Part shown: in pieces, positions 12,768 through 51,822 of the stretch
Position numbering within the stretch: the stretch's first letter is position 1
Layout of the letters: the number at the start of each line of letters is the position of its first letter
Origin: Cyclobacteriaceae bacterium
GTDB taxonomy: Bacteria > Bacteroidota > Bacteroidia > Cytophagales > Cyclobacteriaceae
Length of the DNA: 64,000 nt
Assembly: GCA_019638395.1 (NCBI GenBank)
Contig: JAHBTX010000002.1
Span: forward strand, 434,001-498,000
Reading direction: 5' to 3'
Notes under the pieces: generated by a model
Told to the model about the DNA's origin: nothing
Database searches by the model: none
What the model saw: only the letters and a program-made list of their open reading frames with translations
Position numbers and translations under genes: made by a program

Positions 12768-12770
12768 TTG

Positions 12771-12845
12771 TGGGAGCTGAGGGGTTCGAACCCCCGACCC
12801 TCTGCTTGTAAGGCAGATGCTCTGAACCAGCTGAGCTAAGCTCCC
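12771..12845 (-). tRNA. tRNA-Val (anticodon TAC)
   Basis: A 75-base cloverleaf on the minus strand. The acceptor stem pairs GGGAGCT with AGCTCCC, the D-arm is GCTC...GAGC, and the anticodon stem TCTGC/GCAGA holds the loop CTTACAA, giving anticodon TAC (valine). The T-arm has GGGGGTTCGAACCCC. The discriminator base is A and CCA is not encoded. Immediately upstream (12863-12903) lies a partial copy of its own 5' half carrying a palindrome. Confidence 0.95.
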
Positions 12846-12862
12846 TTTCTATTAGGTTTCTT

Positions 12863-12903
12863 CTCTGAACCTCCCGATAATTATCGGGATGAGCTAAGCT
12901 CCC
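12863..12903 (-). repeat. Partial tRNA-Val 5' copy with an 18-bp palindrome in its D-loop
   Basis: Read on the minus strand: GGGAGCTTAGCTCA, identical to tRNA-Val positions 1-14, then the perfect palindrome TCCCGATAATTATCGGGA (12872-12889), then GGTTCAGAG, identical to the following D-loop and D-stem bases. Compared with the real gene, the three bases GCT are replaced by the 18-bp palindrome. The copy ends 17 bases before the real tRNA-Val and has the same orientation, so it would lie in the 5' leader of the tRNA transcript. It cannot fold into a tRNA because everything after the D-arm is missing. Confidence 0.9.
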
Positions 12904-12952
12904 TATTTTAAAGGACTGCAAAGGTAGAAGAGAATTCTATTTGTGCAAAAAA

Positions 12953-39428: not shown

Positions 39429-41204
39429 GTGTCCATCGATCCGAAAAATATCCTTACATCCATCCCCGATTCTCCGGGTATTTATCGCTATTACAACAAA
39501 GAAGGCGAGCTGATTTATGTAGGTAAAGCTAAAAGTTTGAAGAAGCGGGTATCAAGCTACTTCAACAAACAATCGCAATACAATCGCAAAACCGAAAAAT
39601 TAGTAAGTGAGATTTTCAAGATAGAGTTTACACTGGCCAATACTGAGTTCGATGCGTTACTGCTCGAAAACAATTTCATTAAACAATACCAGCCCAAGTA
39701 CAACATCTTACTGAAAGACGACAAAACCTTTCCTTATCTCTGCATTTTAAATGAACCGTTTCCGCGTATTATCTACACGCGCAAATACATTCCCAAACAA
39801 GGCGAATACTTCGGGCCGTACTCCAGCGTGGTATCGATGAAAAGTGTGTTGGAATTAGTGCGTCAGATTTATTCCATCCGCACTTGTAACCTGCTGCTTT
39901 CGCAGGAAAACATTGAACAAAAAAAATTTAAAGTATGCCTGGAGTTTCACATCGGCAACTGCAAGGGCCCGTGTGAAGGATTGCAAAACGAAGCCGATTA
40001 CCTCGAAGATATTAAACAGGCGCGCAACATTTTGAAAGGCGATTTAAGCGTGGTGGAAGACGAACTTGCACTTAGAATGAAAAATGCTTCGGAAATAATG
40101 GAGTTTGAAAAGGCAGCTATCTTCAAACATAAATTAGAGTTGCTCGAAAAATTTCAAACCAAATCGTTAGTAGTAAATCGTAAGCTTACAGACATTGATG
40201 TAATTACCATTACCAGTACCGAAACCGATGCCTATATCAACTACATGCAGATAAAAGAAGGCTCGATCATTTTTTCTAAAAACCTGGAGGTTAAAAAGAA
40301 ACTGGAGGAAACCGATGAAGAGATTTTGAGCATGGTAGTGCAGGGCTTACGATCTACCTATCGCAGCAGCAATCCGGAAGTATATACCAATGTACCGCTT
40401 ACCGTTAAAGCAGATGCATTTGAAAATGTGCTGCCGCAAATTGGCGACAAGAAAAAATTAGTTGATCTATCCTTAAAGAATGCGCTTTATCAAAAGCGCG
40501 AGAAAGAAATCAGTAAGGAAGAGCAGAAAGACAAGAAGAATAAAGTTTTGCACATTATGCAAGAGAACCTGCGCTTGCTGCAATACCCAAAAATTATTGA
40601 GTGCTTCGATAACTCCAACTTTCAGGGTACATCGCCCGTAGCTTCGATGGTGCGCTTTGTAGATGGCAAACCCGATAAAAAAGGGTATCGTCATTTTAAC
40701 ATCAAAACCGTTGTTGGCCCCAACGATTTTGCTTCCATGAAAGAAATTGTAACCAGGCGTTACAAGCGCATTATGGAAGAACAAGGTGAGTATCCACAAC
40801 TTATTATTGTGGATGGTGGCAAAGGACAATTAAGCAGTGCGTGCGAGGCTTTGCAAGAACTTGGACTTTATGGTAAGATTCCCATCATTGGTATTGCCAA
40901 AAGGTTGGAAGAAATTTATTACCCGGAAGACAACCTGCCGTTGTTGATCAGTAAAAAATCGCCTGCGTTGCTATTGATACAACGCATCCGCGATGAGGCT
41001 CACCGGTTTGCCATTACGTTCCACCGGCTAAAACGCAGCAGCAATACATTCGTTACCGAGATTGAACAGATACCGGGCATCGGTAAAAAGACAGCCGATA
41101 AACTGTTGGCACATTTTAAATCTGTAAAGAAAATTAAGGAGGCGAGCGTGGAAGAGCTTACAGAATTGGTGGGCGAGAAAATTGCGAATAAACTGAAAGC
41201 ATAA
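39429..41204 (+). CDS. uvrC: UvrABC system protein C (excinuclease subunit)
   Basis: A 591-residue nucleotide-excision-repair nuclease. The N-terminal GIY-YIG domain is clear (PGIYRYYNKEGELIYVGKAKSLKKRVSSYF), followed by the UVR helical hairpin (about 200-240) and the C-terminal RNase H-like endonuclease domain (IECFDNSNFQGTSPVASMV, then IIVDGGKGQLSSACE). Tandem helix-hairpin-helix motifs close the protein (IPGIGKKTADKLLAHFKSVKKIKEA). The start is GTG 39429. Length is normal. A palindromic element follows downstream. Confidence 0.95.
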   Translation: MSIDPKNILTSIPDSPGIYRYYNKEGELIYVGKAKSLKKRVSSYFNKQSQYNRKTEKLVSEIFKIEFTLANTEFDALLLENNFIKQYQPKYNILLKDDKTFPYLCILNEPFPRIIYTRKYIPKQGEYFGPYSSVVSMKSVLELVRQIYSIRTCNLLLSQENIEQKKFKVCLEFHIGNCKGPCEGLQNEADYLEDIKQARNILKGDLSVVEDELALRMKNASEIMEFEKAAIFKHKLELLEKFQTKSLVVNRKLTDIDVITITSTETDAYINYMQIKEGSIIFSKNLEVKKKLEETDEEILSMVVQGLRSTYRSSNPEVYTNVPLTVKADAFENVLPQIGDKKKLVDLSLKNALYQKREKEISKEEQKDKKNKVLHIMQENLRLLQYPKIIECFDNSNFQGTSPVASMVRFVDGKPDKKGYRHFNIKTVVGPNDFASMKEIVTRRYKRIMEEQGEYPQLIIVDGGKGQLSSACEALQELGLYGKIPIIGIAKRLEEIYYPEDNLPLLISKKSPALLLIQRIRDEAHRFAITFHRLKRSSNTFVTEIEQIPGIGKKTADKLLAHFKSVKKIKEASVEELTELVGEKIANKLKA

Positions 41205-51467: not shown

Positions 51468-51500
51468 AAAAGCCCTGACTTATAAAAATCAGGGCTTTGG
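51464..51500. terminator. Bidirectional terminator between pyrC and tRNA-His
   Basis: A 10-base stem AAAGCCCTGA with TCAGGGCTTT and a loop of about 10 bases, with A-rich left flank. It ends pyrC on the plus strand and tRNA-His on the minus strand. Confidence 0.8.
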
Positions 51501-51574
51501 GTGAGTAATGGGGCTCGAACCCACGACCCTCAGAATCACAATCTGATGCTCTAACCAACTGAGCTATACCCACC
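51500..51574 (-). tRNA. tRNA-His (anticodon GTG)
   Basis: The acceptor stem pairs GTGGGTA with TACTCAC (one G-U pair). The encoded extra G at -1 faces discriminator C73, the hallmark of tRNA-His. The D-arm is GCTC...GAGC, the anticodon stem TCAGA/TCTGA holds TTGTGAT, giving GTG, and the T-arm contains GTGGGTTCGAGCCCC. CCA is not encoded. A partial copy of its 5' half lies upstream at 51603-51651. Confidence 0.95.
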
Positions 51575-51601
51575 ATTTGAGGTTTTTATACCTCTACTTT
51601 T

Positions 51602-51651
51602 TCTGATGCTCTAACCATCCCGATAACTATCGGGAGAGCTATACCCACCAT
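51602..51651 (-). repeat. Partial tRNA-His 5' copy with an 18-bp palindrome in its D-loop
   Basis: Read on the minus strand: ATGGTGGGTATAGCTC, identical to the real gene and its two upstream bases, then the palindrome TCCCGATAGTTATCGGGA (51618-51635), then TGGTTAGAGCATCAGA, identical to the rest of the D-arm and half the anticodon stem. The three D-loop bases AGT of the real gene are replaced by the palindrome. The copy ends about 25 bases before the real tRNA-His, in the same orientation. It parallels the tRNA-Val copy exactly in design. Confidence 0.9.
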
Positions 51652-51822
51652 ATAATTTTCAGATTTGGGTTGCCAAAGGTAACGGACAGTGCTTAAAATT
51701 CAAAAAATGATTTATAACTCCTTTTTTTTAAGTTTAAATGTTATTCTTTCTCTTAGAGTATTGGTAAGAATTTGGCAAGCAGTTTTTAGTTGCTTGTTTT
51801 TAGTTGTAATGATCTAAAAGTT

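Follow-up and report, generated by a model that had tools for sequence, protein, structure and literature searches.

The window (the whole 64-kb stretch of DNA that was analysed) contains two tRNA genes, tRNA-His and tRNA-Val, and upstream of each lies a displaced, partial copy of the 5' end of that same tRNA, interrupted by an 18-bp palindrome, hereafter PAL. The features at the two sites are:

51499..51573, minus strand: intact tRNA-His (GTG), called by ARAGORN and matched by Rfam RF00005 at 66.6 bits
51574..51601, minus strand: 28-nt spacer, containing a small hairpin immediately ahead of the intact tRNA-His
51602..51617, minus strand: second block of the displaced tRNA-His 5' end (D-loop GG to anticodon stem), TGGTTAGAGCATCAGA
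51618..51635, minus strand: PAL, TCCCGATAGTTATCGGGA, at the D-loop position of the displaced tRNA-His
51636..51651, minus strand: first block of the displaced tRNA-His 5' end (ATG, acceptor 5' strand and D-stem 5' strand), ATGGTGGGTATAGCTC
51674..51681, minus strand: promoter-like box TACCTTTG, upstream of the displaced tRNA-His end
12770..12845, minus strand: intact tRNA-Val (TAC), called by ARAGORN
12846..12862, minus strand: spacer ahead of the intact tRNA-Val
12863..12871, minus strand: block following PAL in the displaced tRNA-Val, GGTTCAGAG
12872..12889, no strand assigned: PAL, TCCCGATAATTATCGGGA, in the displaced tRNA-Val
12890..12903, minus strand: first block of the displaced tRNA-Val 5' end

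The displaced end reproduces, imperfectly, the first ~33 nt of tRNA-His, and in it PAL (as RNA a 7-bp stem, −9.1 kcal/mol) replaces D-loop bases. tRNA-His and the 150 nt upstream of it share an exact block of up to 16 nt, versus a maximum of 10 in 300 shuffles, and PAL (allowing up to 3 mismatches) is confined within the window to the two tRNA sites (four strand-matches with both strands counted, 0.03 expected), so the half copy and palindrome pointed out in the earlier note are real, as is its tRNA-Val case (12846–12905), which has the same layout. The interval assigned there to the tRNA-His feature, 51575..51651, does hold the half copy and also takes in most of the 28-nt spacer, while the claim that exactly three D-loop bases are replaced is correct if PAL is bounded as above; equally, the replaced stretch can be read as AGTT (4 nt, from the D-stem 5' strand to the GG), which gives a 19-nt hairpin. 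Neither copy contains an ORF, and there is no nuclease match in the His and Val spacers, both of which are too short to reveal a remnant. The His spacer is, in fact, the site where related elements have a GIY-YIG gene.

tRNA-His was found in all 40 genomes of the genus that were searched, and its locus was fetched from 30 of these, 29 of which had a callable tRNA-His (L489, where none was called, was dropped; L484 and L556 are one His locus). With the source genome's own locus excluded, none of the remaining 28 has a copy in the 130 nt upstream (exact 11-mer test), and many of these copy-less loci have matching flanks (tblastx on the upstream side: 94% for L468, 86% for L469). Because the relatives lack the copy and their flanks match, it seems from this sequence comparison that the half copy was probably gained in the source lineage. 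The comparison of orthologous loci proposed in the earlier note thus came out in its favour, and the alternative named there, that the copy is what remains of another complete tRNA-His gene, is rejected on the same 0 of 28 loci. A box similar to TACCTTTG, which we take to resemble a Bacteroidota promoter motif, can be seen by eye in the equivalent stretch upstream in relatives that lack the copy; it lies next to conserved upstream sequence, has kept its place and now stands ahead of the half copy. Because it both keeps its place and precedes the half copy, the half copy would be the native 5' end of tRNA-His, and the intact tRNA would have acquired a new one.

Directly after tRNA-His, a GIY-YIG match is present in 7 of the 29 genus loci (partial in L473, L476 and L496) and absent from the other 22, and four of the seven (L474, L475, L484 and L493) also contain a displaced 3' piece of tRNA-His. 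These insertions are on the 3' side, however, and have other palindromes, which counts against a nuclease origin of the source copy.

Within the source genome (36 tRNA matches), the copies are not confined to the two tRNA genes of the window, where the earlier note had found them: six PAL-type 5' copies were found genome-wide. Besides those of His, Val, Phe and Arg-CCT, there is a decayed copy ahead of tRNA-Met and another that precedes a Leu-tRNA-like RNA (both read by eye; ARAGORN makes no call for the Leu-like RNA). The 4.78-Mb genome has 12 perfect PAL sites (the two central bases being free to vary) and a single further site with a 19-nt variant, while a reversed-PAL control gave no match there. 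Four of the 12 lie in the 5' copies before intact genes (His, Val, Phe and Arg-CCT), two in the Leu-tRNA-like RNA and its 5' copy, and one each in rnpB (P3), in tmRNA and in a hairpin between tRNA-Gly and tRNA-Leu; at the other three (L003, L007 and L008) no RNA was recognised. In an 11-mer search of the ARAGORN-called tRNAs in the own-genome loci, every 5' half copy that turned up contained PAL or a decayed PAL, the matches at Leu-CAG and Thr-GGT looking like adjoining tRNA genes. PAL is present in 26 of the 58 genomes searched, the source genome included. A RAYT/REP origin was rejected, as the source genome has 3 PF01797 Y1 transposase matches, none of them near PAL.

Several RNA genes carry PAL in other ways. 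In rnpB of the source genome (L004:1481-1887) it makes up helix P3 of the RNase P RNA, which in relatives is a variable hairpin with PAL inside it in some (L513, L516 and L081), and in the tmRNA (L010:1316-1725) it is an insert. The Leu-tRNA-like RNA (L001:1475-1700, by eye), called by neither ARAGORN nor cmscan, has a ~90-nt insert with a second PAL and its own PAL-bearing 5' copy ahead. A relative's tRNA-Lys (CTT; L036:1500-1518, by eye) is intact except that PAL extends its variable loop into a class-II-like long arm.

As for GIY-YIG genes in the source genome, an open one lies ~40 nt after tRNA-Thr (by eye), at a locus without a displaced copy, and a truncated second copy adjoins a PAL-interrupted 3' piece of tRNA-Thr (by eye). 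An insertion-sequence-like element splits the PAL beside the truncated gene and the tRNA-Thr 3' piece (L146, L375; G000:C1:258738-259688). The window itself contains a GIY-YIG domain (39474-39704, plus strand) in a 596-aa open frame, which is taken as UvrC by its length and stands outside the finding.

A scan of an 84,980-genome collection for AGCTC next to PAL yielded at least 119 stretches; all 80 titles listed name Bacteroidota taxa bar one 'bacterium', the membership of these taxa being in part presumed. Of the 137 pattern matches listed, 89 lie upstream of an intact tRNA (15 tRNA species, on contigs of other genomes, with tandem units counted separately) to which the copy agrees at 12–14 of 14 positions; the other 48, with no matching downstream tRNA, were dropped, and none of the 137 falls inside a called tRNA. 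Since among the matches listed these 89 match the tRNA directly downstream, they support the proposal of a recurring mechanism in which every half copy derives from the tRNA beside it. PAL fills the stretch from the D-stem 5' strand to the GG in these copies, with a hairpin of 16–19 nt in 80 of the 89 cases with the GG locatable among the matches listed. Some units also duplicate leader sequence, and tandem units of up to three repeats occur (L151, L220, L250 and L261). The motif GTTCTT is present in 11 of 83 short spacers among the loci listed, compared to 0.69 in shuffles, and the tRNA-Asn nuclease genes described below also have it in their leaders (by eye). The generality of the arrangement is nevertheless limited, as the strict PAL pattern was found in only 1 of 395 genomes sampled evenly across the phylum, namely the source genome.

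PAL also occurs in another recurring sequence (..ttgttggAGCTC-PAL-aagcgactg..), mostly of Flavobacteriaceae (L158, L180, L189, L209, L210, L213, L225, L237, L243 and L257), with no Rfam match at PAL in the six such loci searched, and in 106 viral-contig stretches.

Half copy, palindrome and nuclease gene are joined at a number of loci. At five tRNA-Asn loci the half copy and the intact tRNA are separated by a GIY-YIG gene (E 1.6e-15 or better), which codes for ~94 aa in L162 and is broken in L193 and L197; PAL is at the same place in the D-loop as in His. At L529 the order is displaced 5' tRNA-Met, exact PAL, GIY-YIG gene, intact tRNA-Met and a 3' piece of tRNA-Met with PAL; here PAL replaces ATAAT at the anticodon loop, and the 3' piece has it at the same point. 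L541 has a palindrome in place of the whole anticodon arm of a displaced tRNA-Gly, and L445 consists of tandem units of leader, tRNA-Arg 5' end, PAL and GIY-YIG gene. Against a nuclease origin counts that a GIY-YIG match was found in only 5 of 92 spacers among the loci listed, two of these broken, and that genome G071 has an ORF-less half copy, yet only two GIY-YIG proteins, both large. A coding remnant suspected in L202 was not significant (E 0.18). A group I intron in the tRNA was rejected, since none was found at the gathering cut-off in the loci searched and the intact tRNA is uninterrupted.

The association of small GIY-YIG genes with tRNA genes is not limited to loci picked for their palindrome. 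In the genus, a set chosen without regard to PAL, 46 of the 50 small GIY-YIG genes examined (part of the matches listed) adjoin a tRNA gene, all 46 on the strand of the tRNA. A protein search placed 28 of 30 loci at 0–222 nt from a tRNA (28 of 28 on the same strand, 20 after the tRNA and 8 before it), and because the query was itself tRNA-linked, with its own locus among the 30, 20 weaker matches were added, of which 18 were tRNA-adjacent, again all 18 on the same strand. The loci without a tRNA are L549, L555, L571 and L575, the last two cut by contig ends; the distance recorded for L565 is off due to wrong contig-end bounds. Beyond the GIY-YIG gene, 25 of 31 scored loci (the 28 tRNA-adjacent ones and three His loci picked for having the gene) contain a displaced piece of the same tRNA (exact match of at least 12 nt), compared to 1.5 expected with other tRNAs, and mirror-image 3' copies also occur; against this, the displaced copy is absent from 6 of the 31, including the source genome's own tRNA-Thr locus. 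At the break, 19 of the 25 displaced copies have a stem of at least 7 bp, versus 6.2% of random windows from the same loci. The palindromes found there include the PAL core (L529, L532 and L536) and others, such as TCCCGATGGCCATCGGGA, and PAL as a fixed sequence was rejected as the sole explanation of the copies, since other palindromes take the same place.

In 17 other genomes, chosen for PAL beside AGCTC (L382 and L395 left out for ambiguous ORF length), a tRNA or tmRNA lies within ~1.1 kb of 22 of 61 small GIY-YIG loci versus none of the 27 large GIY-YIG proteins that these genomes encode (Fisher p=1e-4), or 19 of 58 (p=4e-4) without the three re-found loci that had brought genomes in. The large controls are ~600 aa, taken as UvrC, and ~455–490 aa. 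Directly repeated sequence, whether tRNA-derived or not, flanks 32 of the 61 small versus 0 of the 27 large genes (p=3.5e-7), and a relaxed palindrome pattern is present at 20 of the 61 versus 1 of the 27. On the other hand, many of these repeats stem from sequence other than tRNA, and 36 of the 61 loci have neither tRNA/tmRNA nor PAL, for which reasons not every small GIY-YIG gene belongs to the tRNA-linked kind. Another Rfam RNA as a hidden target was rejected: the 39 small GIY-YIG loci without a called tRNA or tmRNA (L422, which has a tRNA, was included in this run) gave a trp leader and one weak tRNA match only, and the 20 of 27 large controls searched gave no Rfam match. Small GIY-YIG genes also lie near tmRNA (L421, L425, L435 and L443), suggesting that tmRNA is a target as well.

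Three element proteins match Pfam PF01541 at E 5e-12 to 9e-14, two of them with a weak T5orf172 match. Y5, Y16, G18, R26, H30 and E64, which we take to be the GIY-YIG active-site positions, are each conserved in at least 97% of the family-alignment members with a residue there. The element proteins thus have the domain and conserved residues of a free-standing homing endonuclease element, and the genes lie beside the presumed target, as tRNA neighbours, with gene-less alleles in relatives (7 versus 22 of the 29 tRNA-His loci). A structure model of the L162 protein (pLDDT 90) had no fold match at E<=0.001; the best were 1zg2 (UPF0213-type, E 2.5e-3; UPF0213 also tops the sequence search, at E 0.07) and Slx1 (E 6e-3; branched DNA, according to entry titles), and the match to I-TevI was weak. 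One element protein matches an NCBIfam group I intron endonuclease model below cut-off. Carriage of the L162 nuclease by phages was rejected, as tblastn of the protein against a phage collection gave no match at E<=1e-3.

From these observations, it appears fairly probable that the His and Val copies are nuclease-less relics of homing-endonuclease-like GIY-YIG insertions that target tRNA genes and rebuild the gene they enter. The element would be a free-standing GIY-YIG endonuclease gene, the product of which would cut a tRNA gene in or near a loop. A unit of displaced tRNA piece, nuclease gene and fresh tRNA end would then be inserted, either in repair templated by a copy with the element or through duplication in tandem where the break lies, and the palindrome would end up in an arm or loop of that displaced piece. 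At tRNA-His, the half copy would be the native 5' end, severed by the insertion, and a complete tRNA would remain because the insertion brought a replacement 5' end. Because the nuclease gene is absent from both sites, these would be either relics, i.e. short forms derived from gene-bearing forms through loss of that gene, or products made in trans. A point against the nuclease model is that the rebuilt tRNA retains the presumed cut site, while the model gives no account of self-protection. More generally, we lean towards the view that Bacteroidota chromosomes host a diverse family of ~90-aa GIY-YIG endonuclease elements that are specialised on tRNA (and tmRNA) genes. Each would bring along an extra copy of one end, 5' or 3', of the gene it targets, by which a working tRNA would be rebuilt upon insertion, with the displaced end marked by a hairpin in a loop (possibly the overwritten cut site) and with nuclease-less footprints at tRNAs.

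PAL may also be mobile in its own right, because it is found in rnpB, tmRNA and other hairpins away from the source genome's five GIY-YIG matches. That an autonomous mobile hairpin, entering the loops of DNA or RNA hairpins and surviving in tRNA genes through partial tandem duplication, accounts for everything, with GIY-YIG genes a separate matter, nevertheless seems unlikely. Such a hairpin would fit the presence of PAL in P3 of rnpB, in tmRNA, at the apices of other hairpins and, seemingly, in the variable loop of the otherwise intact tRNA-Lys at L036, but the displaced copies beside GIY-YIG genes have different palindromes in equivalent places, for which one mobile sequence is insufficient; in the source genome, moreover, no 5' half copy lacking both PAL and a decayed PAL was found among the called tRNAs, and no Y1 transposase match adjoins PAL.

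The same-strand arrangement of all 46 tRNA-adjacent genus loci, the 0 of 27 controls near a tRNA and the palindromes at 19 of 25 breaks make it improbable that the copies arose neutrally and without a nuclease, with slippage of replication at the D-arm hairpin producing the tandem duplication and a hairpin inserted independently afterwards, even though the tandem units at L151, L220, L250 and L261 and the occasional duplication of leader sequence are what slippage could leave behind. A conserved regulatory leader RNA of the tRNA gene (a tRNA mimic or antiterminator), for which the position of the half copy between promoter-like box and tRNA and the frequency of GTTCTT in the spacers could speak, is very improbable, given the absence of the copy from the 28 other genus tRNA-His loci, the different tRNAs concerned in different species and the single strict match among 395 phylum genomes.

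Like REP/RAYT palindromes and the Rickettsia palindromic elements, which are short dispersed palindromes, PAL is short and dispersed, but in the source genome no Y1 transposase adjoins it, and it takes the place of tRNA loops next to tRNA ends that have been duplicated. Essential as they are, tRNA genes are familiar chiefly as targets of integrases, which use the 3' end. If the reading as tRNA-targeting GIY-YIG insertions is true, a chromosomal element able to enter tRNA loops and to re-form the gene from its 5' or its 3' side would solve the problem of insertion into an essential gene in a distinct way, and would explain the odd half-tRNA repeats in draft genomes. The many tRNA species and genomes concerned would then form a large natural set on how homing endonucleases switch targets and why displaced copies are marked by palindromes.

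Among the nearest known systems is SegB of phage T6, a free-standing GIY-YIG nuclease that cuts a tRNA-containing region in vitro, is required for tandem repeats that combine tRNA and nuclease gene, and for which residues Y17/G19 are named (PMC13096335). T6/T4 SegB resembles the present elements in being a GIY-YIG nuclease beside tRNA genes of many isotypes, with microhomology between the tRNA 5' end and the nuclease 3' end; it differs in residing in a phage instead of a chromosome and in having a 718-bp unit with a full tRNA, and palindromes go unmentioned in the available text of that report (PMC13096335). In fungal mitochondria, endonuclease ORFs within genes (Allomyces atp6; Glomus atp6, atp9, cox2 and nad3) bring an inserted duplicate end that restores the gene while the native end is displaced (PMC3630166). 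The likeness is in the duplicated end, whereas the targets there are mitochondrial protein genes, the end is C-terminal, the nucleases are LAGLIDADG except for that of atp9 (GIY-YIG), and the available part of the article does not mention a palindrome (PMC3630166). A search of titles and abstracts in the open-access literature found no chromosomal tRNA/GIY-YIG element of this kind. Thus, phage SegB at tRNA genes and the restoration of gene ends in fungi are known already, while the chromosomal tRNA form appears to be new.
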